Assembly: GCA_013203045.1 (NCBI GenBank)
Contig: JABMQN010000018.1
Location: forward strand, 1-36,462
Source of the DNA: Chloroflexota bacterium
Lineage (GTDB): Bacteria; Chloroflexota; Dehalococcoidia; SZUA-161; SpSt-899
DNA: 36,462 bases
Reading direction: 5' to 3'
The first letter of the stretch is position 1. Each line of letters opens with the position of its first letter. The notes below the pieces were generated by a model. That model made no database searches, was not told the DNA's origin, and saw nothing but the letters and a program-made list of their open reading frames with translations. Made by a program: the position numbers and the translations under genes. Positions 2,726 to 28,374 of the stretch are shown here, piece after piece.

Positions 2726-3286
2726 CTATTGGAGATTCATCACCGGCGCTAATTCTTCCGGTGTAGTCCTTTTAATGGTCACGTTTTCTCCATCAGGAGT
2801 CGTGATCTTGATAGTGAAGGTGGTGTCAGCACTTGGACCAGAGTCAAGAGATTCACCAAGCAGAGCGGTGATGTGGAATGTTTCACCGATTTCCAACATG
2901 TCATCACCGTCGCCGTAGACATATTCCTTGGATTTCCACGGAATATTAGTTATCTCCCCGTCTTCATCGACATAGGATATTTCAACTACATTATTAGGAG
3001 GAGACGTGAAATTTAGGGGCACCGCGTCTCCCGGGATTGCCACAGTAAACATGACCTCGTTCACATTCGTGTTGGTAGGGTTACATTTAACGAAGACAGT
3101 TCCTCTCAGTTCCAGAGCGTTACTGTTATCTGTACCGTATACCGTGACACTACTGTCATCTGAGGATAGACTTGAATAGGCAAGCAGTCCTGCTACAGCC
3201 AGAGCTGCAATTGTAATGCCCGCCACTGAGATTCTGCTAATACCGCCTTGATGCTTGTGTACTTTTCGTAGCAGATTCATTACCAT
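2726..3286 (-). CDS. Second archaellin/pilin-like protein
   Basis: KHQGGISRISVAGITIAALAVAGLLAYSSL hydrophobic N-terminus. Archaellin-like VVEISYVDEDGEITN...DDMLEIGETFHITALL...FTIKITTPDGENVTIKRTTPEE. The ORF call extends to 3403, but AAGGAGT lies 9 nt upstream of an ATG at 3286, making that the likely start. Confidence 0.7.
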   Translation of the reverse strand: MVMNLLRKVHKHQGGISRISVAGITIAALAVAGLLAYSSLSSDDSSVTVYGTDNSNALELRGTVFVKCNPTNTNVNEVMFTVAIPGDAVPLNFTSPPNNVVEISYVDEDGEITNIPWKSKEYVYGDGDDMLEIGETFHITALLGESLDSGPSADTTFTIKITTPDGENVTIKRTTPEELAPVMNLQ

Positions 3287-3531
3287 TCGGCCTTTACTCC
3301 TTTCCTCAGAAGTGATCCTTATAACAACAACAGAGTTGCCCATTGAAATCGGGTTTATATAGATTTTACAAAAGAAGGGGGGGCTCGGATACCGTGCCGG
3401 CACTCATTTTGATTTGGGGGAATGCCCTCAGAGGTATGGGGGAAACTGTAAACGACGAAGCTCCGGTAGACTTCATTTTTAAATGACAGTTTGGGACAGG
3501 AGTACTGTTTGGAAGTGCCTATGAAATAACA

Positions 3532-6371: not shown

Positions 6372-7613
6372 CTATCTCTTGAGACGTCTCACAGATAGAT
6401 GAACTAGCAACACGGTAGCTAGCAGTAATGCTAATCCTCCGCAGATCCATCCGGCTCTAGACCATTTAGAGTTCGTCTCATTGGGAGAAGATGACTGGCT
6501 GGCCTCAGATCCGACGAGGTCAGTGTTCCTCAGATCTAAGTTCGGATCGTTTGGATTTAGAGGCTGTATCGGTTCGGTGGTTGGGAACGGATCAAGTGTT
6601 GGCGAGATCGTTGTTGGCATTGGAGTTACTTTAGATGTAGTTCCGGGCGTCGTTTCGGCAGTAGGAGTAGTCATTGGTGTGGAAGGACTCACCAAGGCAA
6701 ACCTGTGCAAATGTGAGATCGAAAAGGTAATCGTGTTCAATTCCGGATTCAACACGCTGTTAACAAATTCCCATTCCCCGTTTGATTCATTAAAGATGGC
6801 AATAGCTAGATTGGACTCATCAATACTCTGCAATAACATATCATCCGAATAGGACAAGCACACATCTATTCCGGGCATAATGAACGACCCTTTTTGCCAC
6901 CAAGCGTAGACTGTAATTACGTCATAGTTGTCCGGAGGAGATAGAGATATAAGTGTTGGCGATAGTGTAATTGAACTCAAAGGGTTCATTGATGAATCTA
7001 GAATCTGTGCTCCGACTGGAATTTGGATGACCAAATCTTTGTTGACAGTACTGGCATATACATCTTCCATTAATGTCCCATTAGGTTGGATGAGCCATGT
7101 TGTTATCTTTCCATCAAGGTCTAGCATCAGACGTGGAGAAGCCCATCCCGTAATATCGTCTGATGTAGCGAATGATGCACAATTGGAAAGACCAGACCAG
7201 TTCGGAATTTCGTCTGATGTTTTAAGTGCGAAAAATCCCCCAGTATCTGGTATAGTATCTGTGATTACCATTGTTTCGGAAGTGCCTGCTGGTTGAGGTA
7301 TAGGGATGTTGCTTACTTGATTTGCATTATTCCAATCAGTTTCAGTGGTAATTGGTTGTGAAGAGTATCGTATATCGTATTGAGTAGCTATTCCCCGATC
7401 ATCATCATCACCAGGAGCTGTCCATGTTAAGGTTAATGATTCTTCCGATGGATTGATCACCATTAGATCGGTCACGGAATCTGGAGGTACTGTATCTTCG
7501 ATGATAAAATTTCCATTCACCGTTTGACTTGTAGCTGGAGCAATGTGGGGCCATACCGTCAGAAGTAAAACAGTTAGCCAAAGCATAGTAGTTCGAAATA
7601 CCGTTTTGTTCAT
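6372..7613 (-). CDS. Exported protein with FnIII-like domain, Thr/Pro-rich stalk and C-terminal TM anchor
   Basis: N-terminal signal peptide; PPDSVTDLMVINPSEESLTLTWTAPGDDDDRG (FnIII-like); STPMTTPTAETTPGTTSKVTPMPTT linker; WICGGLALLLATVLLVHLSVRRLKR anchor. Confidence 0.8.
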   Translation of the reverse strand: MNKTVFRTTMLWLTVLLLTVWPHIAPATSQTVNGNFIIEDTVPPDSVTDLMVINPSEESLTLTWTAPGDDDDRGIATQYDIRYSSQPITTETDWNNANQVSNIPIPQPAGTSETMVITDTIPDTGGFFALKTSDEIPNWSGLSNCASFATSDDITGWASPRLMLDLDGKITTWLIQPNGTLMEDVYASTVNKDLVIQIPVGAQILDSSMNPLSSITLSPTLISLSPPDNYDVITVYAWWQKGSFIMPGIDVCLSYSDDMLLQSIDESNLAIAIFNESNGEWEFVNSVLNPELNTITFSISHLHRFALVSPSTPMTTPTAETTPGTTSKVTPMPTTISPTLDPFPTTEPIQPLNPNDPNLDLRNTDLVGSEASQSSSPNETNSKWSRAGWICGGLALLLATVLLVHLSVRRLKR

Positions 7614-7673
7614 TTACATTGCCTGACGTTTGAATTCAAGATTAGATTTGAAAACCTATTGTTTATATAAGAA

Positions 7674-7705
7674 AGAGCGGGGTGAAACATTTCATGCCCC
7701 GCTCT
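7674..7705. terminator. Hairpin downstream of the 335-aa module protein
   Basis: AGAGCGGGG TGAAA-ca-TTTCA tg CCCCGCTCT: 14 paired positions with a 2-nt bulge, between the CDS ending at 7739 and the CDS starting at 7613. Confidence 0.6.
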
Positions 7706-7738
7706 GACGGATATTACTCTTTGGAAAACCGTGTACCT

Positions 7739-8746
7739 TTATGAACCGTTAATAATTTGATAGTTGATTGTTCCCTGATATTCTTCAGGGATAATACCTG
7801 TGCTACCCAACCAGAGCCACATAGTATTGTTTGCTTGAGTATCACCAGATTCGCTGGTTTGAGTACCGCTCTCATCAATCGAGGTATATCCGGCACTTAG
7901 AACTTGAACGGAATCGGCTTGTGTAGCATCATCATCTGCGGTTAGAGAAAACTCGGCGGAACCTGGGCTTGTGCCTGATGTGTTTAATGCGATGGTTCCA
8001 CTACTGGTCTGACCGACCCAGCTTGCATCCGATTTGACCTGTTCATCATAAGCTCCATTTGCAATATACGTAGCGCTAACTGCTCCCGAAGGTGATCCAG
8101 TACATCCTAATACAACTGATCCGAAGCTAGTTGTACCTGAAAGAGTAGATATCTCTCCGTACCAGTCCACCTCTCTATCTTCCTGATAATTATCACCTGT
8201 AGTAGTCCCATCATCGGCTACAGCGTAAATATGCCACTCTCCTGCACCCGGACTCTCGGTAGTCACTTTACCTGGTATAAAGTTAAATTCAAATGTTCCA
8301 CTGGAGCCGGTGAGTGAAGGTTGGGTACAGCTGCCGCTTACCACAGACCACGTAGTGCTGGCGTTGGGATCCATGCTCCAACTTCCACTGTTTGCCCAGT
8401 TTAGGATGGCACAGTTTTGAGTGTTACCTGATGCGGGTCTACTTCCAGTGTTGTATGTTCCGTCAGCGTCGTAATAAAGGTAGACTTTCACAGTGCTGAG
8501 GTCATTGAGGGAATTGTTATCTGTAACAGCTACTTTTACGTTGTATTGTACCTGTGGGGTCATCGATGAAGATGCGGCGGCACTTGTACCAGTACTCCAT
8601 AGTGCAACGCTACTCACTGAAGGCGCAGCATTGCTCACTGTAAAAGTTCCTGTTGATGAACCTTCGACAGCAGCCAGAATTATACTTGGCGTGGCGATTA
8701 TCAACATCATCACTAACGTTACTGCTATTGACTTCATTGAAAACAT
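7739..8746 (-). CDS. Exported protein consisting mainly of the shared C-terminal module
   Basis: Signal peptide followed by ~290 aa module (SVALWSTG...EEYQGTINYQIINGS*) shared with three neighbouring proteins. Confidence 0.8.
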   Translation of the reverse strand: MFSMKSIAVTLVMMLIIATPSIILAAVEGSSTGTFTVSNAAPSVSSVALWSTGTSAAASSSMTPQVQYNVKVAVTDNNSLNDLSTVKVYLYYDADGTYNTGSRPASGNTQNCAILNWANSGSWSMDPNASTTWSVVSGSCTQPSLTGSSGTFEFNFIPGKVTTESPGAGEWHIYAVADDGTTTGDNYQEDREVDWYGEISTLSGTTSFGSVVLGCTGSPSGAVSATYIANGAYDEQVKSDASWVGQTSSGTIALNTSGTSPGSAEFSLTADDDATQADSVQVLSAGYTSIDESGTQTSESGDTQANNTMWLWLGSTGIIPEEYQGTINYQIINGS

Positions 8747-8997
8747 TGTTCTATGTTCCTATCTTGAATAATGCCTCTATCACAACATCCTCACCGCCAC
8801 AACTATGAACAATAGGTAGAATATTCCTTCTAGAATAAACGTATCATAAATAGGGTTTGTATTCGACGTGGAAATCCCTACTTTGTCATGGGTGTAAACC
8901 CGATGAATACCAATCAATACTGAGACGTCTTGAAAAGGCATATTTAAACCTAGGGTCTATGAGGAATTCCCGTAGATTAGGAGATTTGTGATGAGGC

Positions 8998-9030
8998 AGC
9001 CTAATAAATAACATGGTTATTTATTAGGCT
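8998..9030. terminator. Perfect 15-bp stem A+T-rich hairpin downstream of the 401-aa protein gene
   Basis: AGCCTAATAAATAAC-atg-GTTATTTATTAGGCT, read directly. Confidence 0.65.
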
Positions 9031-9060
9031 ATGTACATGCTTGATATTTTAAATTCACAT

Positions 9061-10266
9061 TTACAGTGATTTGCTTATTCGATACCGTTTTCTTTTGATG
9101 GATCGCCTTTTGTTCAAAAATACTAGTGTTGAAATAGCGACGAGAACAAGAATTCCGATCACTATCCCGATGATGAGCGGGGTATTACTGCTACCCTTTT
9201 CTTCATCCGCTTCGTCATCTTCGATAACGACGATACCCTCCACGTCAATGGACCCAATCGTACTGTACGTGTAGGGTTCGCCACCCAGATTTAACTGCAT
9301 TTGAAAACTGTACCGTCCATTAAGCCAACCATCCGGCGGGATATAATTATATGATTGCTCTATAGTGCCTATTTCCAGTATACTCATAGTTCCTATCGAT
9401 ATTTCCTCGATTAGTACTTCATCGTGATTAACCAGAAGGAGCATTTCAGCATCGTTCATTGGTTTGTAAAGGTTCTCGATTACGTATATTAACTTAGTGA
9501 ATGCAAGTTGTCCGCTGGTACTGTGGTAGTGTGGCACAACTCCAAAATTAAGAAAGTACACGGTTTCAATTACCAGATTTACCGTTTTCTCTTCACCATT
9601 AGCCACGTTAAAACTCTCTTCGGCCAGTTTTTCATCTGCGACGTAAGCGTGGGCAATGAAGCGCCCTGGCGAAACCGTTGTTTCCAATATTCCAGTCTCT
9701 GAATAATCAAACTCCGACTCGGCGCCATCAGCGGCTATTTTCATTAACCTGATAACGGCGGGGATAGGTTCACCTGATGGGCCGACAGATTTTACTGTAA
9801 CGAAAGCAGACTCGCCAGTTATTATTACGGTGGCGGTCTGTCCTGCGGCTCCCATGATCTGGATTCCCCCCTCACTCTCCGAGTAGGATTCAGCGGTAAC
9901 TCGTATCTCGTGTTCTCCCGCAGGCGCGTCTTCGGAAGCCTCCAATGTTATAAGTACTTTCTGCTGTCCACTAGGCGCAATAGCAAAATCATCGTGGGAG
10001 AGAATAACGCTTACACCGCGTGGGGCTTCAGTGACCATTCGAACATTGAGTTCAGAATCACCATTATTGAATACAACTACATAGATGCTTGGTCCGCTAA
10101 TACTGGCGCCCTGGGGAAGTTCAAAAGGTTGACGGTAGAAGCTGCCTGATATGGCAATACCACCGTCTGCATTTGCCGGTATCGACCCAAACAGGAATGA
10201 TGACAGTACCAGCATTAGAATTGAAAGCAATGGTATGGTCGATTTTCTACATCGATAAAATTTCAT
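9061..10266 (-). CDS. Exported protein with NEW3-like/beta domains and C-terminal TM anchor
   Basis: Signal peptide; VVVFNNGDSELNVRMVTEAPRGVSVILSHDDFAIAPSGQQKVLITLEASEDAPAGEHEIRVTAES (NEW3/CARDB-like); TPLIIGIVIGILVLVAISTLVFLNKRRSIKRKR C-terminal anchor. Confidence 0.8.
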   Translation of the reverse strand: MKFYRCRKSTIPLLSILMLVLSSFLFGSIPANADGGIAISGSFYRQPFELPQGASISGPSIYVVVFNNGDSELNVRMVTEAPRGVSVILSHDDFAIAPSGQQKVLITLEASEDAPAGEHEIRVTAESYSESEGGIQIMGAAGQTATVIITGESAFVTVKSVGPSGEPIPAVIRLMKIAADGAESEFDYSETGILETTVSPGRFIAHAYVADEKLAEESFNVANGEEKTVNLVIETVYFLNFGVVPHYHSTSGQLAFTKLIYVIENLYKPMNDAEMLLLVNHDEVLIEEISIGTMSILEIGTIEQSYNYIPPDGWLNGRYSFQMQLNLGGEPYTYSTIGSIDVEGIVVIEDDEADEEKGSSNTPLIIGIVIGILVLVAISTLVFLNKRRSIKRKRYRISKSL

Positions 10267-10277
10267 TTTCTGCTCCT

Positions 10278-13046
10278 TTATGACCCATCGGCAATCTTGA
10301 GGTAGACTGAACCCTGGTATTCCTCATCCGGGATATCAGCGCTACCAAGCCAGAGCCACAGGTTATTGTTAGCCTGTGCATCACCAGATTCAGTTGTTTG
10401 TGTTCCAGTATCATCTATTGTTGTATACGATGCGCTAAGCACTTGCACTGCATCAGCCAGAGTATCGTCATCATCGGCTTGGAGTGCGAATTGAGCATTC
10501 CCTGGATTCGTACCTGAAGCGTACAAAGAAATTGTTCCACTGCTCGTCTGTCCAACCCAGTTCGCATCTGATTTTACTTGTTCAACATAAGCTCCATTGG
10601 AAATATAGGTAACGCTAAATGCAGTAGAAGGCGATCCGCTCGTTCCCAGTGATACAGTTCCAAAGCTGGTGTCAGTGATACTGGCAGTTTCTCCATACCA
10701 GTTCATATCCCGGTTTGCCGAATAGTTGCTAGCAGTAGTAATGCCATCATCAGCTTCGGCAAAAGCGTGCCACTTGGCTGATCCGGCATTCTCCGTAGCT
10801 ACTTTGCCTGGCTTGAAGTGAAACTCAAAATTGCCGGTAGTACCAGTGAGAGAAGGTGCCGAGCAACTGCCGCTAACGACAGACCATGTAGTGCTAGAGC
10901 TGGGATCAATACTCCATGTAGGAGAGCCTCCGTTAGTCCACGTGAGTATAGCTGCTGTCTGCGTATTACCTGATCCTGGGACGTCTTCAGCAGCGTAGCT
11001 GCCATCGCTATCATAAAAGAGAGTCAACTCCACGTCGCTCAAATCATCAAGTGAGTTGTTATCTGTAACAGGCACTTTGGCGTTGTATTGCACCTGCGGG
11101 ATCATCGAGTTAGTTGATGCGATAGTCCCCGTAGTAGTCCAGATTAATGGTGCATCGACCGTGGGAGCTTCGTTTGCAGGGGTAAATGAAATTGTGGATG
11201 TATCTATCCTTTCAGGGATGGTTTCAAAGGTAATGGAGAACTGGGGTCTTCTATATGTATAACCATTCTCGGTGCTCCCGAAATTGATGGCTGTGTAACC
11301 TATTCCTTCTTGGTCAGTGATCATGATGAATCCATATCGGTGACCGGCATTGTCATTTTGATATTGGAGAACATCACGGGCTAATTGATCCCCGAATGTC
11401 CACGTATGGTTTCCCCCCACCACCGGGATGCTGGTTACAGATGCCAGTGCGGTGTTACCTCTATCATTTGTACCATCGTAGTCACTTGATGCGTCACCGT
11501 CTACTCCAGACGTACTCTTACCCGCGCCGGCAGTGGTCCATGCAGACGTATTATAGCGCTCATAGTTCCAGCATACTTCTCCGGAAAAGGCTTGGTAATG
11601 AGCTCTCGTTCCTTCATTCACATCCCAGTCTCCTGAGGCAGTACCCCAATCATCCAAAACGGGATATATGCTCATGGTGTGGCTCACTCCTCCGCCCCCG
11701 CTGACCACGTAAAGATTGAGAGAGGCCCCGGTAATGGTGGCATCAGGATGGGCCTGGTCAAAGGCCGCCAAATCAAACTGGAAGAGAAGGCGATTGTGGT
11801 ATTGCCATGACGACCAGATAAAACTTCCGCATCTCAGCGTGTCATCGGTGCCAAAGTTGTAGTTTTCAAATACAAGTGATAAAAGAGAGGTATCCTGAAC
11901 TCCAGAATAGTTTTCTCCACCCCTGTTACCAAATGTAACCGTATCATTAAACAGCAGGCCAGAGTTGCCCAGATTGAAGGCCGTTGCAGGAACCATGTCG
12001 TAAAATTTGGTTTCTGTGAGTTCTTTGTCACGAATGACCGTTGCATCTGAGGAACTGGTACCCGAAAACAAATCTATTTTCGATCCGTAGAAGCCTGTGC
12101 TTGGCTGAATGGTATTACCGATGGGATATCTTTTTGTGGAACTGACTGTATTATAATATGGTTTGCTTTGTGTCATTCGCTCTGTTCCGAAGCTACAAAG
12201 CGCCATGCCGTTTGTTGCCGAATCCAAATACGCGCTATCCGTTTTCAATATAGTAGATAATCCGTTATCGTCGGATTCCGGCGAACCGAAACGCAGTGGA
12301 GCCGGTGTTATCCAGTGGATCGGCCTGCCTGTATCCGGGCTGTAAAAAACAATGTTCCCCCACGAAGTATCTAGGATTGCATTACTTGCTTCTACCGAAT
12401 AACTGTACCTGATACCCACCGCTAGATCCTCAATCTGATCACTTGGCAAGTTACTAAATATAGTATCTTTCAGCGTCTTAGGTATGTAGACTCTATCTAC
12501 CAATTGGTCGTTTATATATTTTACGGAATATGAGATTCCATCTGAGTCTGTCCATGATACTGTATCGCCGTTCACGGTTGGTGTCAGGCCAGAGAAATCG
12601 AATTCAAATATCAGCTCTTCCCATCCGGTTACATTGTTTCTCACCACGATGCCATCTATCTCGAATGATCTCTCGTCGCCCCAGTGCTCAAAAGTGAATG
12701 TGCCATTCTCCTTGATCCATAATCGATATACGCCAGAAGTCACTTCCCAGGTATATCCCGGTTTATCTGATGACCGGATGCTCACATCCACCAGATCATA
12801 TTCACCTTGTTCATTCTTGTAGTATTTGGGATAGGCATATACGTTCCATGTATTCCCAACTTGCTCGGAGAAGTGGTTAATTGGGATAGCTTCCTCTGAT
12901 TGTGTTCCGGATAAGATGATGTTCTTAAGATTGATGCATCCCGATGATGTGAAGAAAAATACTGCCAGCAGGAGAATAGTCGCGATAGTGCTCATAAGGA
13001 GGTCGCATATAGTTTTATTCGATTTATTCACAGTCAGTATTGTCAT
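10278..13046 (-). CDS. Large exported (possible lipo-)protein with DNRLRE-like domain and shared C-terminal module
   Basis: Signal peptide ending FFFTSSGC (lipobox-like); NRLLFQFDLAAFDQAHPDATITGASLNLYVVSGGG...DWDVNEGT is DNRLRE-like; C-terminal 291 aa is the shared module. Confidence 0.8.
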   Translation of the reverse strand: MTILTVNKSNKTICDLLMSTIATILLLAVFFFTSSGCINLKNIILSGTQSEEAIPINHFSEQVGNTWNVYAYPKYYKNEQGEYDLVDVSIRSSDKPGYTWEVTSGVYRLWIKENGTFTFEHWGDERSFEIDGIVVRNNVTGWEELIFEFDFSGLTPTVNGDTVSWTDSDGISYSVKYINDQLVDRVYIPKTLKDTIFSNLPSDQIEDLAVGIRYSYSVEASNAILDTSWGNIVFYSPDTGRPIHWITPAPLRFGSPESDDNGLSTILKTDSAYLDSATNGMALCSFGTERMTQSKPYYNTVSSTKRYPIGNTIQPSTGFYGSKIDLFSGTSSSDATVIRDKELTETKFYDMVPATAFNLGNSGLLFNDTVTFGNRGGENYSGVQDTSLLSLVFENYNFGTDDTLRCGSFIWSSWQYHNRLLFQFDLAAFDQAHPDATITGASLNLYVVSGGGGVSHTMSIYPVLDDWGTASGDWDVNEGTRAHYQAFSGEVCWNYERYNTSAWTTAGAGKSTSGVDGDASSDYDGTNDRGNTALASVTSIPVVGGNHTWTFGDQLARDVLQYQNDNAGHRYGFIMITDQEGIGYTAINFGSTENGYTYRRPQFSITFETIPERIDTSTISFTPANEAPTVDAPLIWTTTGTIASTNSMIPQVQYNAKVPVTDNNSLDDLSDVELTLFYDSDGSYAAEDVPGSGNTQTAAILTWTNGGSPTWSIDPSSSTTWSVVSGSCSAPSLTGTTGNFEFHFKPGKVATENAGSAKWHAFAEADDGITTASNYSANRDMNWYGETASITDTSFGTVSLGTSGSPSTAFSVTYISNGAYVEQVKSDANWVGQTSSGTISLYASGTNPGNAQFALQADDDDTLADAVQVLSASYTTIDDTGTQTTESGDAQANNNLWLWLGSADIPDEEYQGSVYLKIADGS

Positions 13047-13061
13047 TGCATTTCACTTCAA

Positions 13062-14132
13062 TTATAAGCCGTTTATAATTCGATAATATAGGGTTCCTTG
13101 ATATTCCTCACTTATGATACCGGATTCATATAACCAGAGCCAGAGATGGTTGTTAGCTTGTGTGATGCCCGCTTCCCCGGTCTGGGTACCCGAATTGTTG
13201 ATCGTTGTATAATAATCACTTTGCACCTGCACTGAGTCAGCCACGGTGTCATCATCATCTGCCTTGAGTGCAAATTGGGATGCACCTGGACTGGTACCGG
13301 AGGTGTGCAAAGTCAATGTTGCAGCGCTGTCCTGACCGGTCATTGTTGCATCTGATCTTACCTGCTCATCATAGGGACCATTGGAAATGTAAGTAGCGCT
13401 TACTGCCCCGGAAACAGACCCACTGCATCCCAGCGGCACGGTACCGAAACTGGTAGTGGCGGTCACTCCTGAGACCTCTCCATACCAGTTCATCTCACGG
13501 TCTTCCTGGTAATTGTCGCCGGTCCCAGCGGCACCGTCCGTAGCTATGGCATATATGTGCCATTCGTCATTACCGTTATTCTCTGTAGCTACTTTGCCTG
13601 GTTTAAAATGGAATTCAAATGTACCGGTGGAGCTGGTGAGTGACGGGGCGGAACAACTGCCACTGACAACAGCCCAGGTAGTGCTGGCACTGGGATCAAT
13701 CGTAAATGAACCTCCATTGGTCCAGGTGAGAATGGCACACGATTGTGTGTTACCAGTTCCGGGTCGGTCTCCCTCATCATACGTGCCGTCAGCGTCATAG
13801 TAAATAGTCACCTTCAATGTATTGAGATCGTTGAAAGTATTGTTGTCTGTCGCGGCTACCTTCACATTGTATTGGGTTTGTGGGCTCATTAAAGTGGCCT
13901 GTGCTGCACCGGTCCCTGTGCTCCAAAGCTCCACGCTGGTTATTGAAGGATCTTCGTTGGGTATAGTGAATGATCCGGTTGAAGGTATTTCTGTTGCTGC
14001 AAGGACAATCCCAGGCATTGTTACGAGCAGTAACACGATTGCCACTGCTAAAGATGAAATCCTATTTGATTCCAAATTTGGCCCTCTTTTCCTCATACCT
14101 GAAGTAAAAAGTCTGGCCAAACATGCATTCAT
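13062..14132 (-). CDS. Exported protein consisting mainly of the shared C-terminal module
   Basis: Signal peptide VAIVLLLVTMPGIVLAA then module SVELWSTG...EEYQGTLYYRIINGL*. Start overlaps the upstream gene by 4 nt (ATGA); a downstream start at MRKRGP is also possible. Confidence 0.8.
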   Translation of the reverse strand: MNACLARLFTSGMRKRGPNLESNRISSLAVAIVLLLVTMPGIVLAATEIPSTGSFTIPNEDPSITSVELWSTGTGAAQATLMSPQTQYNVKVAATDNNTFNDLNTLKVTIYYDADGTYDEGDRPGTGNTQSCAILTWTNGGSFTIDPSASTTWAVVSGSCSAPSLTSSTGTFEFHFKPGKVATENNGNDEWHIYAIATDGAAGTGDNYQEDREMNWYGEVSGVTATTSFGTVPLGCSGSVSGAVSATYISNGPYDEQVRSDATMTGQDSAATLTLHTSGTSPGASQFALKADDDDTVADSVQVQSDYYTTINNSGTQTGEAGITQANNHLWLWLYESGIISEEYQGTLYYRIINGL

Positions 14133-17100
14133 GAACCGTCACCAATTCCGAAATAGACGCTGCCTTGGAATTCATCTGCCGGAATGCCAGAATCGGTAGT
14201 AAGCCATAAATAGTTGTTAGCCTGGGTAACACCAGCCTCCGCAGTCTGTGTACCTGATGTGTCTATTGACGTGTAAGATGCGCTTGCAACCGATACTGCG
14301 TCAGCCACAGTGTTATCATCATCTGCCTTTAGAGAGAACTCGGTACCCAAGGAGAGAGCGGTGCTGGTGAGCTGTCCGATCCAACTTGCATCTGACTTGA
14401 CTTGTTCATCATATGCTCCGTTCGAAATATAGGTGGCGCTCACTGCACTGGTAGATACGATGTCAGTATCTCCCAACGATACGCTACCAAAGCCAAAGCT
14501 AGAGGTGATACTATTGATTTCTCCATACCAGTTCATATCCAAGTTGTCCTGGTAGTTATTGGCTGTTAGGGTGCCGGAATTCGCCGCCCCGTAAATGTGC
14601 CACTTGGCTGAGCCTGTAGTCTCAGAGGCTACCTTCCCCGGAGTGAAGTAAAACTGAAACGTGCCCTCAGTGCTGCTCAAGGAAGGTGCAGAGCAACTAC
14701 CGCTATTAATTGACCAGGTAGTGCTGGTATCAGGATTAATGGACCAGACAGGCGATCCACCGTTGGTCCAGGCAAGTATAGCCGCCGTTTGAGTGTTGCC
14801 CGAGCCCGGGACATCTTCAACGGCATAACTGCCGTCGCTATCATAGAAGAGGGTAGCCTTTACTGTGCTTAAGTCATTGAGAGTGCCGTCGTTTTTGGTG
14901 ATTCTGACCCTAGTGTTATATTCAACTTGCGGTGTTATCGATGTTGCTTCCGACGGCGTTGCCCCGGTGTCCCACAACACCACTGAATTCAATACGAAAT
15001 CGAGAGGCGCTTGCCACGATAATAGCCAGTCCTTGAGTGTTGGTGTATCGCCGCCGTCTGAGGTCAGCTCTGCGTATGCCTTTACAGGATTAATTGAACC
15101 GGCACATTTTGAAATGTCGTAACCTATTGCGGCTTCGGTGCCGCTGATGGTGCAGAGCACGCTATCATCGCTGGCATCTAGTATTTTGTACTCGATACCG
15201 GTACCTGCAGGCGTGCCGTGATTGACAGAAAAGGTATCCCATGAAATGGTGCCGCTGATAGTGATATCAGTTGAAGTAATCGTGCCGGGCGACCCGTACG
15301 CAGTCAGAGATGCGATGCCGTTGCCCACAGTTATATTGGAGGTGGAATCCACTTTATCCCAGGCAAACTTGCCGTCACTCCAGTCATTCCAGGTAATGTT
15401 CCAATCGTGCAGGGTCGGCGTAACGAGGGTATCAGTGGTAGAAAGGTTGGCTGCCAGCCTGACTTCAGAGTAAGTCCCGGTATTCAAACTCATCAGATCT
15501 ACCGGGGAGCTATCGAAGCCCGCAGCGTTCCCGGAAAGATCACCATCCGGGATCAGTTGCCATGATCCGCCGCTATAATACTCAAGCCGGATCTTGATAT
15601 CGGTATTTGTTGGTTCCGTATCACTCCAGCCAAGTGAGTCCCAGTTACTCAGGCTTGAGGGCGCGATACCGACAGATGAGACGGTACCAGATGAACTATA
15701 AGTGTTGAATGTTTTCGTAAAGACCAGATCATCGAACCACACCTTCTTGACAGTACCCCCCAGAAGGGCACCAAGTCTTAGTTTAAAGCTGGAGTTGCCA
15801 TACGTGTCGAGATCTATGGCGGCATTGCGGCGGAGCCAAGCCCAATCTGAACCATTGTTGTCCAGGTAATCTATAACGGTCCAGGATGAACCATTATAGT
15901 ACTCAAGACGGAAATCATAAGTTGCAGTATAAAGTTTATAGAACCAGAAATCCAGATTGGCCGTTAAAGCATTGGAAAGATCAATTGTATCCGACGTGAG
16001 GTAATTCCAGGCATATACGCCATTTTTCACCCACATACTGTGATTGCCACTGCGACTTATACCTGATTTGATGGACCATGGGGATGTACCATCCCAGAGG
16101 GAATGGGTGAAGCTGTCGCTGAAAGCGGTCTCACCATCTACAGTCAGAACCACGTCATCCACCCACGCAGAATGCCCGATAGCGTTCGTGCAATCGATCC
16201 TGATTCTAAAATTGGAAATGCCATAGGTACCAAGGTCTATCGCCACATCATTGTAGTGGAGCCAGGTCCAATCGCCACCATTGTTATCAAGCTCGTCGAT
16301 GATATCATAAGTTGAGCCGTTGAAAAAATAAAGGGTGAAACCGGTGGCTGCCGTGTTATACTTGCGGAACCAGAAATCAAGACTGGCCGATGTCGCGCTC
16401 GAAAGATCGATATCATCCGATGTCACGACTCCCCCCCCTCCAAATTGAGACCTCAAACACGCGTAGTCGTCGTGATATGCAGTGCCCCCGACATCCAAAG
16501 AGGTAAGACCATTTCCATCCCAATTGCTCAGGTTGAAGCTGTCAGAGTAAGTGGTCTCGACTAAATTTGAAACGAGGGTGGTATCCCCTCCACTGGTTGC
16601 TGTGTTTGTGGAGCTGGTGGATATCGAAACAGTGCTGCTGAATGAGTCACCCCAGGATGTTGTTGATTCCTCTGCACCCAGTTCAAACGTTGGCTCATCT
16701 TCAATGAATTTTCTAGCTCTGGCCCATGAAACATAAATATCCTGTATATCGTAAGATCCTGCGCCAGAGCCAAGAAAAAAACCAAGATACATATATACTG
16801 ATTCGTTAAAATAATCTAAAGAAACCTTCTCAACATAATTACTAAAAAGACGAATATTTGTTCCATCAAAACCTGTTCCAAGTACGTAATCGACTTGTGC
16901 TGTTCTAGTAAATACTGGTACTCCTGATCCGAGGTTATAGCTTGCAACTGTACCATCACCAGCAAAATAGTTTACAGATGATCCTGCTGGATAGTCGACC
17001 ATGTAACATACATTGGCATCAGCTCCTGCGTTGCCAGCTTGCAAATTTTTTACATCTACTGTCATCATGCCAGAATACCAAGTTCCCGTACTCGCATACC

Positions 17101-17734
17101 ACTTGACCATTGATTCAAAGATCATCTCATCACTCTGGGCTACCGTATTTTTAGTATAAATACTTCCTTTATTTATTCTCACTCCTCCATCTGCAACAGT
17201 TACATTTGCTGGACTTGTTGCCGTCCATACATCTGTATCTAATGATGCTCCATCAAAATCATCAAAGAAAGTAAAAACACTTGTTCCGCTCGACACAGCG
17301 TTAGCGGTGGGATTCCCATAATACATATGAAAAGTTGATGTTCCACTGGATGGAAGTGATGGGTATTTCACCCAGACGCTTGATGTACCGGAGTTATTCC
17401 AGGTCTCAATCCAATAGCTGCAGGCAGTTCCGCTGGAGGTTGTGAACCTGAGGTCATCGCCATTAGATCCTTGAACATTGTTGTAATTAAAGGTATCTGG
17501 AGTAAGTGTAATTTTCACCGGGTAGTCGGTCAGCGCGGAGCCGGAGTTTTCCGTTAGCTCGATGACCCTTCGGTAATCCCAGTCGGTATCGTCCCAGGTT
17601 GGAGGAATTTCCGCTTGAGCAGGGGGTGGGAGCATTTGTGGAAGTAGTAATACTGCCAATAGAAGGAACAAAGTGCCCACAGAAACGAGTTTGCTGATAT
17701 CTCTTCTGAAAAGCGACGTGTTCTGATCATTCAT
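14129..17734 (-). CDS. 1201-aa exported protein: DUF2341-like N-terminus, LamG-like region, tandem MAM-like repeats, shared C-terminal module
   Basis: Signal peptide; WDDTDWDYRRVIELTENSGSALTDYPVKITL...HMYYGNP (DUF2341-like); two tandem ~138-aa repeats (DSFNLSNWDG.. / DSFTHSLWDG..); C-terminal 285 aa is the shared module. Confidence 0.85.
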   Translation of the reverse strand: MNDQNTSLFRRDISKLVSVGTLFLLLAVLLLPQMLPPPAQAEIPPTWDDTDWDYRRVIELTENSGSALTDYPVKITLTPDTFNYNNVQGSNGDDLRFTTSSGTACSYWIETWNNSGTSSVWVKYPSLPSSGTSTFHMYYGNPTANAVSSGTSVFTFFDDFDGASLDTDVWTATSPANVTVADGGVRINKGSIYTKNTVAQSDEMIFESMVKWYASTGTWYSGMMTVDVKNLQAGNAGADANVCYMVDYPAGSSVNYFAGDGTVASYNLGSGVPVFTRTAQVDYVLGTGFDGTNIRLFSNYVEKVSLDYFNESVYMYLGFFLGSGAGSYDIQDIYVSWARARKFIEDEPTFELGAEESTTSWGDSFSSTVSISTSSTNTATSGGDTTLVSNLVETTYSDSFNLSNWDGNGLTSLDVGGTAYHDDYACLRSQFGGGGVVTSDDIDLSSATSASLDFWFRKYNTAATGFTLYFFNGSTYDIIDELDNNGGDWTWLHYNDVAIDLGTYGISNFRIRIDCTNAIGHSAWVDDVVLTVDGETAFSDSFTHSLWDGTSPWSIKSGISRSGNHSMWVKNGVYAWNYLTSDTIDLSNALTANLDFWFYKLYTATYDFRLEYYNGSSWTVIDYLDNNGSDWAWLRRNAAIDLDTYGNSSFKLRLGALLGGTVKKVWFDDLVFTKTFNTYSSSGTVSSVGIAPSSLSNWDSLGWSDTEPTNTDIKIRLEYYSGGSWQLIPDGDLSGNAAGFDSSPVDLMSLNTGTYSEVRLAANLSTTDTLVTPTLHDWNITWNDWSDGKFAWDKVDSTSNITVGNGIASLTAYGSPGTITSTDITISGTISWDTFSVNHGTPAGTGIEYKILDASDDSVLCTISGTEAAIGYDISKCAGSINPVKAYAELTSDGGDTPTLKDWLLSWQAPLDFVLNSVVLWDTGATPSEATSITPQVEYNTRVRITKNDGTLNDLSTVKATLFYDSDGSYAVEDVPGSGNTQTAAILAWTNGGSPVWSINPDTSTTWSINSGSCSAPSLSSTEGTFQFYFTPGKVASETTGSAKWHIYGAANSGTLTANNYQDNLDMNWYGEINSITSSFGFGSVSLGDTDIVSTSAVSATYISNGAYDEQVKSDASWIGQLTSTALSLGTEFSLKADDDNTVADAVSVASASYTSIDTSGTQTAEAGVTQANNYLWLTTDSGIPADEFQGSVYFGIGDGS

Positions 17735-18119: not shown

Positions 18120-18878
18120 CTATTGTGCCACCCATCCACCGTCTACGGATAGAGCGTGACCGGTAACAAAAGATGCTTCGTCAGAACATAACCATACTGC
18201 AGCCTCGGCGATTTCCATTGGCTCAGCCATCCGACCTATTGGGTGCATGCCAATTATCAGGTTTTCAAGTTCTTCATTGCCTCCGGTTAAAGCGTCTACC
18301 AGAGGCGTACGGGTCATACCTGGGCATACAGCGTTCACTCGAATTCCGGCTGCAGCATACTCTAGTGCTGCCGATTTTGTAATTCCAACAACACCGTGCT
18401 TCGCGGCGATGTAGGCCGTGTTGTACTCACCACCGATTAGGCCTCCGACACTTGAAGTGTTAACGATGGCCCCCTTTCCCTGATTGAGCATCACCGGAAT
18501 CTCGTATTTCAGGCAAAGCCAGACACCTTTCAGGTTTATATTGATGACACGATCCCACTCTTCCTCGGTACAGTCGGGGAGTGTGGACACTACTTGCTCA
18601 ACTCCCGCATTATTAAATGCGATGTCCAATCGGCCATGGGTTTTAATGGTTTCGTCAATAAGCGTTTTGACCTGATCTGCTTTTGAGACATCGGTCTTCA
18701 CGAACATGGCTTCGCCGCCAGTTTCTTTGATCATCGTTACCGTCTCATCTCCCCCCTCTTCCCCGACGTCCCCAATGACTACTTTCGCTCCTTCACGGGC
18801 AAATACGATGGCAGCCGCTCTCCCGATCCCGGAACTACCTCCGGTAACCAGAGCAACTTTGCCTTCCAATCCTTTCAT
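18120..18878 (-). CDS. SDR-family oxidoreductase
   Basis: VTGGSSGIGRA, NNAGVE, YIAAKHGVVG (YxxxK), GHALSVDGGWVAQ. Confidence 0.9.
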   Translation of the reverse strand: MKGLEGKVALVTGGSSGIGRAAAIVFAREGAKVVIGDVGEEGGDETVTMIKETGGEAMFVKTDVSKADQVKTLIDETIKTHGRLDIAFNNAGVEQVVSTLPDCTEEEWDRVININLKGVWLCLKYEIPVMLNQGKGAIVNTSSVGGLIGGEYNTAYIAAKHGVVGITKSAALEYAAAGIRVNAVCPGMTRTPLVDALTGGNEELENLIIGMHPIGRMAEPMEIAEAAVWLCSDEASFVTGHALSVDGGWVAQ

Positions 18879-18907
18879 TCGTTTGTCCCCTTTATGTGCT
18901 TTGGAGT

Positions 18908-18926
18908 GCGGCAGTCCAACTGCCGC
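18908..18926. repeat. Small inverted repeat GCGGCAGT-cca-ACTGCCGC
   Basis: Perfect 8-bp stem, intergenic. A second hairpin ATCCCCCTT-tg-AAGGGGGAT lies at 18978-18997. Confidence 0.5.
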
Positions 18927-19040
18927 TTTCTGGATTGCATGAGTTATGTCATTGGGAAATTACTGCGGTATTTGCCAATCCCCCTTTGAAGGGGGATGTT
19001 ATCCTCTATTTCACTCCAGCCATGTCTATCCTGCCCTCCA

Positions 19041-19622
19041 TCATAGTCTTCTCGGAGGTTGTGGCGCACAGTAATAAATCGCAGGACCGGCACCCTGTTC
19101 TGACTTCAGAGTATAGGCGTTTCTATTTGCAATCAGTTTGGAGACGTCGCTCGCCGGATCCGCGATATCCCCGTAAAACATGGCATCCACTCCACAACAT
19201 AAAACACAAAACGGCTCGAAACCTTCGTCGAGACGATCAGAACACATATTACATTTTCGCACCACGTTCTTATCTGAATCGAAGAATAGGGCCTCGTACG
19301 GACAGGCTGAAATGCACATCTGGCAACCATCGCATTTTTCTTCATCAATCAGCACAATCCCGTCAGGTCGCTTGGAGATGGCTCCGGCTGGGCAAGCGTC
19401 CTGGCAAGGTGGTTTATCACAGTGCATGCAAGGTGTGGGCAAATAGTACATACTCAAATTAGGATATGTCCCTCCCGGAGTATCCCGGTGAGGACCTCCG
19501 ACTGTTTGAACACTGATCCCTGATCCAACCTCGATACCATGCTCAACCTTACAGGCTACCGTGCAGGTTTGACATCCGGTACATCTTTCCAGATCAATGA
19601 CCATTCCATATCGCTTGACCAT
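19041..19622 (-). CDS. 4Fe-4S ferredoxin, DmsB/PsrB-type electron-transfer subunit
   Basis: CTGCQTCTVAC, CMHCDKPPCQDACP, CDGCQMCISACP, CNMC...CVLCC: four cluster-binding motifs. Directly follows the Mo-oxidoreductase genes. Confidence 0.9.
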   Translation of the reverse strand: MVKRYGMVIDLERCTGCQTCTVACKVEHGIEVGSGISVQTVGGPHRDTPGGTYPNLSMYYLPTPCMHCDKPPCQDACPAGAISKRPDGIVLIDEEKCDGCQMCISACPYEALFFDSDKNVVRKCNMCSDRLDEGFEPFCVLCCGVDAMFYGDIADPASDVSKLIANRNAYTLKSEQGAGPAIYYCAPQPPRRL

Positions 19623-19624
19623 TT

Positions 19625-21859
19625 CTATCCCTCCTCAACTCGTTCGATCTCGACCAGCGTATCGCAAAAGGCCGCGTTTGGTTCGTAGATGGCTGCCTGG
19701 GCCGGATTGATGGTGTTATGCGTCAATGCCTGGTGGGTGCCGGCTTTGTAGTGCCAGGGGGACCATCCCTGGTTCATATTAACCAATCTTTGTGGAATGC
19801 CATTTTGAACTTGCGCTTTGAGTTTGACTTCGCCTCTGTCGTTGAATACCCTCACCAAGTCACCATCTTTGATATTTCTGGGTTTGGCATCCTCCGGGCT
19901 GATGTTTAATACTGGCTCGGTATCAATCTCGCGGATCCATGAGATATTGGTATACATCGAGTGAAGCCGATACTTGGGGTGAGTAGTGGATATTGAAAGC
20001 GGGTATTTGTGGGCCAACGGTGTTCGCTGACTCTCCATCGGTTCGATGTATACCGGCAATGCCTGATCGAAATCCTTAAGCCGTTCCGTGTAGAATTCGA
20101 TCCGGCCGGATGGGGTGGCGAAGGGAGGTGCAGGATCAGGGGCCGGGTATTGAGGGGCTTCCTCAAGTTTTTCCAGCGTTATCCCTTCCATAGTCGGATG
20201 CCCTGAAGCAATCATGATCTCAATGTATTCCTTATCAGTCTTGTCGAGGAACCCCTCAATCCCCATCTTTTCAGCCAGGCCTGAATATATCTCAATATCC
20301 GATTTGGATTCATGAAGCGGTTCGATAACCTTCTTTTGCAGTTGGAGGTAATCTTGAGAACCCTCTCCGATGCTCGCAGCCAGATCATTCCACTCATACG
20401 GACTGCATGTCGGCAGGACGATATCGGCGTATTTGGCGCTGGTGGTCATGAACATGTCCACGGCTACTACGAGTTCCAGTTTGGGCAGCAACTCGCGAGT
20501 GAATTTATTGAAATTTGGGTCCTGGTTCATCAGGTTATGTCGGGTCATCCAGAGCGATTTGAGGGGATGTGGTTGCTCGTTTTCGATAGCCTCGTACATC
20601 TGAAGCAAAGTGACGAGATCGGAGATTCCATGAGTCATGAAAGTCATGAAGTTGTATTGAGTGGTGTGGGGAGTCCGCACACTGATGTTTCCGGTAATGG
20701 CTGCCAGGGTATTTATGGCCCGGAAAGTGAGATCCCCGTAGAGTGACCCTCTGGTGCCTCCCATACCTCTGTAAGTGGCGGTCGGTTTTTGGGTAGCATA
20801 CTCCATGGCAAGCTTGATCATGGTTTCTACTGGAACATTCGTTATTTCAGAGGCTTTTTCTGGCGGGTACTGATCTATCAGCTCACTCAGAAGCTGAAAA
20901 GCTGGCTTGCATTCAATACCGTTCACAGTGAAAGTGCCGATTACTGCCGGTGATGTATTGGACATGTCATGGGTCGCGGCACTATTTTCGCCCTGATCCC
21001 AGATTACGTATTTCTCAGACTCGCCTCTGGAGATATCCTTTTCTCTCAAGAAAAGGCCATTATCCATACGTACGAGAAATGGTGCAACGGTGTGTTGAAT
21101 CAGAAATCCGATATCATGGAGACCCCGTTCCAGAATGACGTTCATCATCCCAAGAGCCAGGGCCGCATCGGTGCCGGGCCTGATCCGTATGTACTCATCA
21201 GCTTTGGAGGCAGTAGTGGTGAATCTTGGATCGATAACAACCAGCCGTGCACCTTTCTCCTTGGCATCCATGATACGTCGCCATTTGAAGGGTTGCGTAT
21301 CAGCCGGATTATTGCCCCATGCCACGCAGAACGCCGGATTCTCAAATCGATTGAGGTAATCCTCCCCATACCACATAAATGCCCCAAAAGAGGCCATATC
21401 TGCGCAGGGCCCGGCCGAATCACCAAGACCTGCCGGAAGGATGAACGTTCCTCCACACGCACCAGCGAAACCAACTGTCAGCAGATTGGAGAACAGTCCT
21501 ACGCCTGTCGAAACAAATCCAAGTGAGTTTGTGCCATACTTCGCGCCAATGTCTTTCAATTTAGAAGCGATAGTCTCTAAAGCTTCATCCCAGGAAATCG
21601 GCTGCCACTTTCCCTCGCCTCTTTCCCCCACGCGTTTCATCGGGTGTTTCAATCGATCCGGATGGTACACCAGCTTTGGGGCGGACAAACTCTTAACGCA
21701 GACGTGACTCGTACCTGCGTGATCACTCGGTTCGACCTTGAGAAGTACCCCGTCCTTAACGTGAGCCAGGATGCCGCAAGATATCCCGCAACCGTATGGG
21801 CAAACGGTACGAATCACCTCAGCCCCGGGCACTGCTCTAACCTGTCTTTGCAATGTCAT
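19625..21859 (-). CDS. Molybdopterin (bis-MGD) oxidoreductase, DMSOR superfamily, paralog 2
   Basis: CPYGCGISC...CVKSLSAPKLVYHPDRLKHPMKRVGERGEGKWQPISWDEAL. The ORF call extends to 21952, but AAAGGAGGTGCCAATG supports a start at 21859. No Tat motif. Confidence 0.9.
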   Translation of the reverse strand: MTLQRQVRAVPGAEVIRTVCPYGCGISCGILAHVKDGVLLKVEPSDHAGTSHVCVKSLSAPKLVYHPDRLKHPMKRVGERGEGKWQPISWDEALETIASKLKDIGAKYGTNSLGFVSTGVGLFSNLLTVGFAGACGGTFILPAGLGDSAGPCADMASFGAFMWYGEDYLNRFENPAFCVAWGNNPADTQPFKWRRIMDAKEKGARLVVIDPRFTTTASKADEYIRIRPGTDAALALGMMNVILERGLHDIGFLIQHTVAPFLVRMDNGLFLREKDISRGESEKYVIWDQGENSAATHDMSNTSPAVIGTFTVNGIECKPAFQLLSELIDQYPPEKASEITNVPVETMIKLAMEYATQKPTATYRGMGGTRGSLYGDLTFRAINTLAAITGNISVRTPHTTQYNFMTFMTHGISDLVTLLQMYEAIENEQPHPLKSLWMTRHNLMNQDPNFNKFTRELLPKLELVVAVDMFMTTSAKYADIVLPTCSPYEWNDLAASIGEGSQDYLQLQKKVIEPLHESKSDIEIYSGLAEKMGIEGFLDKTDKEYIEIMIASGHPTMEGITLEKLEEAPQYPAPDPAPPFATPSGRIEFYTERLKDFDQALPVYIEPMESQRTPLAHKYPLSISTTHPKYRLHSMYTNISWIREIDTEPVLNISPEDAKPRNIKDGDLVRVFNDRGEVKLKAQVQNGIPQRLVNMNQGWSPWHYKAGTHQALTHNTINPAQAAIYEPNAAFCDTLVEIERVEEG

Positions 21860-21909
21860 TGGCACCTCCTTTGGTCCATTGAGAGAATTGAATACTGTTC
21901 CTCCGTAGC

Positions 21910-21950
21910 GCGACCATTCAGGGTCGCTTCTGGCGAGGCTCAAGCCTCGC
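21910..21950. repeat. Pair of adjacent hairpins between the two Mo-oxidoreductase genes
   Basis: GCGACC-attcag-GGTCGC (21910-21927) and GCGAGGCT-ca-AGCCTCGC (21933-21950). Confidence 0.6.
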
Positions 21951-21951
21951 A

Positions 21952-24180
21952 CTACGTTATTGGTTCCACTTCGACCAGCGTATCGTACTGGGCGATATTC
22001 GGTTGATAAATAGCCTGTTGCGCCGGATTGATTGTCTCATGAGTCATTGCCTGGTATGTGCCACCGATGAAGTGCTCCGGAGACCACCCTTGGCAGATGT
22101 TGACCGATCCGGGCCTGATGCCTGAGTTTATCCAAGTTTGTAGTATTACCTCTCCTCTATTGTTGAATGCACGAACCGTATCACCGTCCACTATGCCTCT
22201 GGCTTCTGCGTCCGCGGGGTTGATCTCCAATACGGGACCCTGATCGATCTCACGAATCCATGAAACGTTGGCGAACATGGAATGAATGCGGTATTTGGGA
22301 TGAGTCGTTAAAAGCGTCAGTGGATAGTCTTGAGCCTTGGGTGTTTTGGGGCTTTCCATCGGTTCCAGGTAGACCGGCAGCTCCTGACCGAACGGTTTAA
22401 GTAATTCCGTGTAGAATTCAAACCTCCCCGAAGCTGTCCCGAATCCCTGAATGGCATGAGCATTGGGTAATCTGGGATTTTCTGCCAGTTGTTCGACGGT
22501 TATCCCTTCGGTTGATGGATGTCCTGAGGCAAGCATTTGGTCGATATATTCCTCAGGACTTTTATCCAGATATTCTTCCATTCCCATAGCAGCGGCAATT
22601 GAGGCGAAGATGTTGATATCCGATCTGGATTCATGAAGCGGTTCGATTACCTTGGGCTGCAGTTGGAGATAGTTGTGTGATCCATCACCTAGCGGTGAAT
22701 AAAGATCGGTTGATTCGTACGGGCCAGCGGCGGGTAAAACGATATCGGCGTATTGGGCACTGGTAGTCATGAACAGGTCGGCAACCACTATAAAATCGAG
22801 TCGGGGCACGAGTTCATCGATGATTTTGTTGAAATTGGCGTATTGATTGATAGGATTGTGTCTGGCCATATAGAGCGACCTGATTGGATACGGTTTGTCC
22901 TCGAGAATGGCTTCATACATGTTGAGTAGTGGCAGAACTCCGGGAAAGCCTCGCGTCATCAGGGCAGTCATGTTCACTTCGGATGAATTTCGACCCTCAA
23001 AACTGATGTTTCCAGTGATGGCAGCTAAAGTGCATATAGCCCGGAAGTTGAGATCGCCGTGGATGTTGCCTCTCGTTCCTCCCAGCCCTTTGTACGAAGC
23101 AGCCGGTTTGGCAGTCGCATATTCTATGCCAAGCCTTTCGATAGTCTGAGCGGGAATTCCGGTTATCTCGGAAGCCTTTTGTGGCGGGTATTGATCTATC
23201 AGTTCAGTCAGGAGCTGAAAGGCCGGTTTGCAGGTAATCCCATTGACTTCATATGCCCCAGTCAACGCAGGGGTAGACCCCGGTGTTTCAGGATTTCGCG
23301 CTTCATTGGTTTTAGTATCCCAGATTACGTACTTATCGGATTCTGTGGAGTTGACATCTTTTTCCTTTAAAAACAGTCCGTTGTCGGTGCGTATCAGGAA
23401 TGGGCCGATCGTGTGTTTGATGATGAATTCTTTATCCTCTAGGCCCTGCTTCAGGATTGCATTCATCATCCCGAGTGCAAGGGCTGCATCGGTTCCGGTT
23501 CGAAGCGGTACGAATTCATCGGCTTTGGACGCGGTTGTGGTGAAACGAGGATCGATGACGATGAGTCGAGCGCCCTTTTCTTTAGCATCCCGGATCATGC
23601 GCCACTTGAAGGCTTTGGTTTCAGCCGGATTCTCCCCCCAGACGAAAATCGAAGCAGGATTGTCAAACTGAACAGTGTAGTCCTCTCCGTACCACCAGGG
23701 GGAGCCATAACAGGCCTTGTCGGCACAGGGACCAGCCACATCGCCGCAGCCTGACGGATCGATGAACGTACCACCGCAGGCACCGACGAATCCGAGCATG
23801 GCTGTTGTGGTCAGTGCTCCAACCTGATCGATCACGAAAGCCAGTGATGAAGGACCATATTTCTCGCCGATTTCCTTGAAATTGGTGGCTACCATATTGG
23901 TGGCTTCATCCCAGGAGATACGTTCCCATTTCCCCTCCCCTCTGGCCCCTGCTCGTTTTAGAGGGTATTTCAATCGATCGGGGTGGTAGACCATCTTTTG
24001 GGCTGAGAGACCGCGCAAGCAAACATGACTTGTTCCCAAATGATCGCTTGGCTCGATTTTGATCAGATTGCCATCTTTAATATGGGCCAGCACACCGCAG
24101 GCGATGCCGCAATTGAGTGGGCATACTGTGCGTATTACTTGCGTTACGGGCGCTTGTCTGACTCGTCTCTGAAAAGCCAT
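21952..24180 (-). CDS. Molybdopterin (bis-MGD) oxidoreductase, DMSOR superfamily, paralog 1
   Basis: CPLNCGIACGVLAHIKDGNLIKIEPSDHLGTSHVCLRGLSAQKMVYHPDRLKYPLKRAGARGEGKWERISWDEA. Clear full-length similarity to the adjacent paralog. No Tat motif. Confidence 0.9.
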   Translation of the reverse strand: MAFQRRVRQAPVTQVIRTVCPLNCGIACGVLAHIKDGNLIKIEPSDHLGTSHVCLRGLSAQKMVYHPDRLKYPLKRAGARGEGKWERISWDEATNMVATNFKEIGEKYGPSSLAFVIDQVGALTTTAMLGFVGACGGTFIDPSGCGDVAGPCADKACYGSPWWYGEDYTVQFDNPASIFVWGENPAETKAFKWRMIRDAKEKGARLIVIDPRFTTTASKADEFVPLRTGTDAALALGMMNAILKQGLEDKEFIIKHTIGPFLIRTDNGLFLKEKDVNSTESDKYVIWDTKTNEARNPETPGSTPALTGAYEVNGITCKPAFQLLTELIDQYPPQKASEITGIPAQTIERLGIEYATAKPAASYKGLGGTRGNIHGDLNFRAICTLAAITGNISFEGRNSSEVNMTALMTRGFPGVLPLLNMYEAILEDKPYPIRSLYMARHNPINQYANFNKIIDELVPRLDFIVVADLFMTTSAQYADIVLPAAGPYESTDLYSPLGDGSHNYLQLQPKVIEPLHESRSDINIFASIAAAMGMEEYLDKSPEEYIDQMLASGHPSTEGITVEQLAENPRLPNAHAIQGFGTASGRFEFYTELLKPFGQELPVYLEPMESPKTPKAQDYPLTLLTTHPKYRIHSMFANVSWIREIDQGPVLEINPADAEARGIVDGDTVRAFNNRGEVILQTWINSGIRPGSVNICQGWSPEHFIGGTYQAMTHETINPAQQAIYQPNIAQYDTLVEVEPIT

Positions 24181-24253
24181 AATGCCTCCCCGTTGAGAAC
24201 TTTCAGTCTGTTTTATAATTTAGCTCGGTCCACGAATTCAAATGGAATTAAGT

Positions 24254-24376
24254 CGTTCATACTTCGACAGGTCGCTTGCGCGCCAAAGCTTCAGCGACGG
24301 CACGCTCAGCACGAACGATTCCTTCCCCGTTTAACACCGCTCATCCTGAACATGTCGAAGGGCGAGCGGTGCTGAG
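24254..24376. repeat. Composite palindromic intergenic repeat (REP-like)
   Basis: CTTCGACA (24262-24269) / TGTCGAAG (24353-24360); CGTTC (24254-24258) / GAACG (24313-24317); CACCGCTC (24335-24342) / GAGCGGTG (24364-24371); CTCAGCA / TGCTGAG. Confidence 0.55.
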
Positions 24377-24391
24377 TCGTGCTATTGAATA

Positions 24392-24982: not shown

Positions 24983-25010
24983 TTTCCATATCCTCCCCGT
25001 GAATTGAATC

Positions 25011-26447: not shown

Positions 26448-26460
26448 TTTTCGTTCCTCC

Positions 26461-28341: not shown

Positions 28342-28374
28342 TCCCCTTTCAACAGGTATATATTACTGAACGTG

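Follow-up and report, generated by a model that had tools for sequence, protein, structure and literature searches.

A C-terminal two-domain module and an adjoining Ig-like membrane protein form a candidate surface-display system in Dehalococcoidia

How proteins are retained on the surface of uncultured Dehalococcoidia (Chloroflexota) is poorly known. Here we describe a locus on a contig of a Chloroflexota bacterium (GenBank assembly GCA_013203045.1, contig JABMQN010000018.1, positions 1 to 36,462; "the window" below means this whole stretch of 36,462 nucleotides [nt]), in which four proteins of 335, 356, 922, and 1201 amino acids (aa) end in the same module and a fifth, of 401 aa, carries immunoglobulin (Ig)-like domains and a transmembrane (TM) helix. 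We postulate that the module is probably what docks these proteins, by their C termini, in a two-component surface-display system; the 401-aa protein, called the anchor below, would be its receptor.

Results

Organization of the locus. The window belongs to a genome of 3.97 Mb in 277 contigs, coded G000 in our comparison. The features of the locus are listed below; D1 and D2 are the two domains of the module, and "tag" denotes a short motif just past the signal peptide.

6372 to 7613, minus strand: fn3-TM protein, 413 aa; tag VNGNFII (7500 to 7520), fn3, C-terminal TM helix
7674 to 7705, minus strand: G+C-rich hairpin, then UUUCUUAU (U-rich tail), between the 335-aa and 413-aa genes, from the fold of 7615 to 7738
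7739 to 8746, minus strand: small protein 1, 335 aa; signal peptide, N-terminal tag, and module alone
7742 to 8152, minus strand: D2 of the 335-aa copy, C-terminal; D2 profile match at 7745 to 8146
8153 to 8620, minus strand: D1 of the 335-aa copy, predicted Ig-like beta-sandwich (AlphaFold model residues 43 to 195)
8636 to 8656, minus strand: tag STGTFTV of the 335-aa protein, just past the signal peptide
9061 to 10266, minus strand: anchor and presumed receptor, 401 aa; signal peptide, tag ISGSFYR (10132 to 10152), three Ig-like domains, TM helix (residues 362 to 397), basic tail
10278 to 13046, minus strand: large protein 1, 922 aa; CBM96 region, then C-terminal module (10281 to 11201)
13062 to 14132, minus strand: small protein 2, 356 aa; module alone, tag STGSFTI at 13962 to 13982
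14129 to 17734, minus strand: large protein 2, 1201 aa; DUF2341 region, then C-terminal module (14132 to 15019)

The 1201-, 356-, 922-, and 401-aa genes stand in close tandem (gaps of -4, 15, and 11 nt, respectively) and have the look of a single operon. About 314 nt separate the 401-aa gene from the 335-aa gene downstream, and the 413-aa gene lies beyond the hairpin. This hairpin is a probable terminator (z = -1.6 for the fold; it was not listed by a consensus terminator scan with a loop limit of 8), and the 413-aa gene is therefore probably on a separate transcript. An earlier note, made from the sequence alone, had described all four module proteins as exported. Their signal peptides are in general consistent with this; export is less certain for the 922-aa protein, which has a hydrophobic N terminus without a clean signal-peptidase I site and a possible lipobox (..SSGC).

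A module of two domains. The modules are collinear, with more than 100 invariant columns in an alignment of the four, and the other three copies are 65, 62, and 57% identical to that of the 335-aa protein. The E values of these matches (1e-139, 1e-116, and 5e-90) exclude chance. The earlier note had recognized this shared ending in the four minus-strand open reading frames (ORFs) and had placed the modules correctly to within about 15 residues; our search puts the matches at 7742 to 8659, 10281 to 11201, 13068 to 13982, and 14132 to 15019. No further copy was found when the whole window genome was searched.

The note had also been unable to assign the module to a family, and our searches agree. 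Pfam gave no match above chance for any of 20 module members, NCBIfam gave none for the four window module proteins, and the family profile found no sequence in the PDB up to E = 10. Weak Pfam matches to Imm5 and BT_3987-like_N, each seen in single members only, were rejected as chance. As judged by these comparisons, the module is a previously undescribed domain family.

The module consists of two domains, D1 (about 155 aa) and D2 (about 137 aa). D1 is, with moderate confidence, predicted to be an Ig-like sandwich: the predicted local distance difference test score (pLDDT) of its AlphaFold model is mostly 60 to 84, and Foldseek returned generic Ig folds only. Profile matches delimit D2 in the other copies at 13068 to 13472 (356 aa), 10287 to 10685 (922 aa), and 14138 to 14515 (1201 aa). 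D2 is an independent unit because one genome (G003) encodes a 188-aa protein made of a signal peptide and D2 alone (L007:15435-16001) and because the module of another (G392) has a large insertion inside D1 with D2 intact.

Position and architecture. All 19 intact copies of the module end 2 to 4 residues past a last strand of the form [YF]-x-G-[TSN]-[IVL]-x-x-x-[IV], and the eight large proteins end 3 to 4 residues past it, so the extreme C-terminal position pointed out for the window extends to every intact member. Small proteins consist of a signal peptide and the module; there are two in the window and one each in loci L008, L009, L046, and L049 to L053. In large proteins the module is preceded by varied domains, such as DUF2341 (1201 aa), CBM96 (922 aa), and DUF5979 (620 aa, in L051). 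The CBM96 and DUF2341 regions suggest a role in adhesion or polymer binding. One module-only gene, in G003 (L007:16050-17151), has an apparent frameshift that divides it into ORFs of 271 and 87 aa; it is either a pseudogene or an assembly error.

The module gene adjoins a membrane-anchored Ig protein. We searched a sample of 393 genomes of the class with profiles of the module and of the 401-aa anchor. The module profile matched nine genomes, and full-length anchor homologues were found in the same nine and in G392 (hypergeometric probability of the co-occurrence, 2e-17 over the 393 genomes, a value that ignores phylogeny). Four of the nine (G000, G003, G178, and G188) had been used to build the anchor profile, leaving five that are independent of it. 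At 10 of 10 loci, those of the nine genomes and of G392, the anchor gene is immediately preceded, on its own strand and within 281 nt, by a module gene. G392 was picked by its anchor alone, and its upstream gene encodes a divergent module-only protein; that gene was an unforced prediction, and adjacency and co-occurrence are our strongest evidence.

A scan of contigs with a single degenerate pattern, which is insensitive, recovered two of these ten loci, in records named Chloroflexi bacterium RBG_13_53_26 and a Dehalococcoidia bacterium. In a sample of 400 genomes of the phylum, the class make-up of which is not known, nothing matched outside the window genome. As far as sampled, the module is restricted to Dehalococcoidia.

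The 401-aa protein is modeled (pLDDT 79) as three Ig-like domains, then a TM helix and lastly a basic tail, and the first domain is NEW3-like in 9 of 10 members. Foldseek matches to this model included the S-layer anchor SlaB (8qox; E = 3e-8), the WxLIP of E. faecium (9i1y and 9i25; E = 3e-7 to 6e-7), and the chaperone Caf1M (E about 2e-5). Proteins with fn3 and CARDB domains and a C-terminal TM helix follow the anchor in L050, L051, and L052, comparable to the 413-aa fn3-TM protein of the window. Together with the C-terminal position of the module, the anchor beside it in nine of nine genomes supports the earlier idea of a surface-attachment, sorting, or subunit-assembly domain. The partner genes then proposed for a co-occurrence check, sortase-like or archaellin/pilin genes, proved not to be the ones: archaellin-like genes are present in the window and none were seen in the other module loci.

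The juxtamembrane domain and TM helix of the anchor recur in G340 beneath a cohesin-fn3-CARDB protein (L101:7332-9561), beside a dockerin gene. We rejected this as a module locus, since it is a cohesin-dockerin pair; the stem therefore seems to display another non-covalent receptor there, which supports the receptor idea. Cohesin-dockerin display has, as the proposed system would, a non-covalent receptor on a TM stem that captures a C-terminal domain, whereas the module and anchor contain no cohesin or dockerin sequence.

Two further observations concern the surroundings of these genes. G188 encodes a second anchor-like protein (L054:5849-10062), in which neither the first Ig domain nor the tag is present; its gene adjoins that of a leucine-rich-repeat surface protein with no module. 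Genes for subtilase-like secreted proteases lie near the module loci of two genomes from the same family (L050:5366-6427 and L051:649-1677) and encode a possible processing enzyme.

A shared N-terminal tag. Just past the signal peptide, the small, anchor, and fn3-TM proteins carry a motif, [ILVMST]-x-G-x-F, often followed by [TY]. It is present in 9 of 11 small proteins, 10 of 11 anchors, and 4 of 5 fn3-TM proteins, in none of the 8 large proteins, and in 3 of 114 control ORFs, which were drawn with a crude signal-peptide rule from about 0.4 Mb sampled from the window genome and from other loci. The count for small proteins would be 10 of 12 with the D2-only protein of G003, which we discounted because in the alignment its match is the first strand of D2 itself. 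The families are internally related, and the independent observations amount to about three families with the tag versus one without. With its conserved glycine, the tag has the appearance of a beta-strand. Its alternating hydrophobic residues around the glycine resemble the N-terminal extensions, or donor strands, of chaperone-usher pilins. As a sequence feature, the tag is absent exactly where a tip subunit would be without it, namely, from the large proteins, and its distribution suggests donor-strand linkage.

Comparison with WxL clusters. WxL clusters encode small WxL proteins, large proteins with a C-terminal WxL domain, and WxLIP, which combines tandem Ig domains with a TM helix; in an AlphaFold prediction, a strand of WxLIP inserts into WxL and completes its sandwich (PMC10599100). 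The module loci resemble these clusters of Bacillales and Lactobacillales (in which WxLIP is DUF916, DUF3324, and TM helix) in having domain-only small proteins, large proteins with the domain at the C terminus, and, at 10 of 10 module loci, an adjoining tandem-Ig protein with a C-terminal TM helix. For comparison, we located real WxL loci in plasmids with an approximate, self-made WxL consensus, a query that found no match in the PDB. One of them (L103) has the same adjacency as the module loci: a WxL gene is followed by one for DUF916/DUF3324, and this in turn by a gene for a large protein with a WxL-type sequence at its end.

There are also differences. The module has two domains and lacks the dual Trp-x-Leu signature, the anchor has three Ig domains, an extra fn3-TM protein and a shared N-terminal tag are present, and the phylum is another one. 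The WxL domain (PF13731) matched none of the 20 module members in Pfam and was absent from the search of the window genome; DUF916 (PF06030) was also absent from that search and, among 10 anchors, matched two, with E = 0.067. The anchor resembles WxLIP in its predicted fold, and a relation in sequence is suggestive: a profile comparison of the two gave 84% (E = 7e-6), covering the last Ig domain and the TM helix only.

Discussion

Because the module sits beside a particular membrane-anchored Ig protein, we favor the view that it attaches to a membrane receptor of its own, perhaps by donor-strand assembly. Exported large proteins, with sugar-binding or adhesin-like domains ahead of the module, and small proteins would both be held on the cell by the co-encoded receptor, which would be the 401-aa protein with its Ig-like ectodomain turned outward on a single TM helix. 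The module would bind this receptor, D2 is the candidate contact site, and the shared N-terminal tag may mediate binding as a complementing beta-strand. By analogy, such a system would work like the WxL/WxLIP cluster of Firmicutes, of which it is not a recognizable member. If this is true, the WxL layout (small protein, large protein, and Ig-TM receptor) either ranges far beyond Firmicutes or arose twice. The domain family, genetic partner, and shared N-terminal tag defined here make up a concrete, testable candidate for a surface-display system.

Several results weigh against this proposal. The sampled genomes share ancestry, and the co-occurrence is weaker than its raw probability. D2, the presumed contact site, has a pLDDT of about 30 in the 335-aa AlphaFold model, which was made from a seven-sequence alignment; of the structure prediction that the earlier note had recommended for this protein, the D1 part succeeded and the D2 part did not. 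The Foldseek matches of the anchor include many Ig proteins besides WxLIP, and the TM-scores are low (about 0.2 to 0.33). D2 was rejected as a member of the WxL family, since the profile comparison gave a probability of 1.3%; the likeness to WxL is therefore architectural. The anchor could also be a further structural component and not a receptor.

An alternative hypothesis overlaps with the docking model and would be its extended form. The small proteins may polymerize head to tail, with the tag strand at the N terminus of one subunit filling the incomplete Ig fold (D2) of the one that follows; we find this rather doubtful, and no less so the accompanying picture of the ends, in which tagless large proteins would cap the tip while the anchor and fn3-TM proteins, with tag and TM helix and no module, would plug the base. 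We raise this hypothesis because the tag is strand-like and missing from the large proteins. The contrast in tag frequency between the small, anchor, and fn3-TM proteins on the one hand and the large proteins and control ORFs on the other argues for it, as does the likeness of the tag to the extension of chaperone-usher pilins. D2 is unfolded in the monomer model, as an incomplete fold might be; that poor model may equally come from the shallow alignment alone. Archaeal threads are donor-strand filaments apparently assembled by a mechanism other than chaperone-usher (PMC9715654). Donor-strand filaments in general (chaperone-usher pili, the archaeal thread Saci_0406, and TasA) share with the module loci an N-terminal strand-like extension, Ig-like subunits, and tip-type proteins without the extension, and the Caf1M match of the anchor fits the same comparison. 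However, the family members that carry the tag are not independent, the tag strand of the anchor is ordered in the anchor's own monomer model, the acceptor groove in D2 is hypothetical, as is polymerization itself, and the family profile finds no solved subunit sequence. No usher or periplasmic chaperone genes were recognized in the ten module loci, the rest of the genomes not being searched. Only tentatively, then, can we speak of a Dehalococcoidia-specific, usher-independent, donor-strand-linked fiber with large proteins as the tip, module-only proteins as the shaft, and the three-Ig anchor and fn3-TM proteins as the base, joined by a G-x-F strand that plugs D2.

A self-assembling sheet seems unlikely. 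In such an S-layer-like or matrix lattice, the anchor would be the stalk, as SlaB is for SlaA, and the two have in common a membrane stalk of beta-domains; SlaB ranks near the top of the anchor's structural matches, there are several paralogues per locus, and monoderms with an S-layer occur in Chloroflexota (PMC12488501). S-layer proteins are usually one abundant species, whereas here diverse large proteins have only the C terminus in common and the distribution is patchy (10 of 393 class genomes); the lattice is in this case hypothetical. We consider it very improbable that the module is a secretion or sorting signal handled by a dedicated enzyme (sortase, PEP-CTERM/exosortase, or type IX-like). 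The extreme C-terminal position in exported proteins would fit such a signal, but the module is a folded region of about 290 aa, no copy has an LPXTG-like motif, C-terminal TM helix, or basic tail, and no transpeptidase-like gene was recognized in the module loci. Sortase, PEP-CTERM, and similar signals were rejected on this C-terminal anatomy, with copies that end 2 to 4 residues after a beta-strand.

Other genes in the window

A cluster at 18120 to 36260 adjoins the module locus and encodes molybdopterin oxidoreductases with an Fe-S subunit, an HpaB-type hydroxylase, short-chain dehydrogenases/reductases, a thiamine pyrophosphate enzyme, an acetone carboxylase gamma-like protein, and hydantoinase B. 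These genes may together serve the degradation of aromatic compounds or ketones; they have no obvious connection with the module. On the other side, archaellin-like genes lie at 1530 to 2669 and 2726 to 3403 on the minus strand (Arch_flagellin, 72 and 28 bits). A second archaellin cluster, with at least five archaellin matches above the cutoff, is located elsewhere in the genome (G000:C253:16391-23890). Archaellum-type genes have been described in Chloroflexota (PMC12488501).

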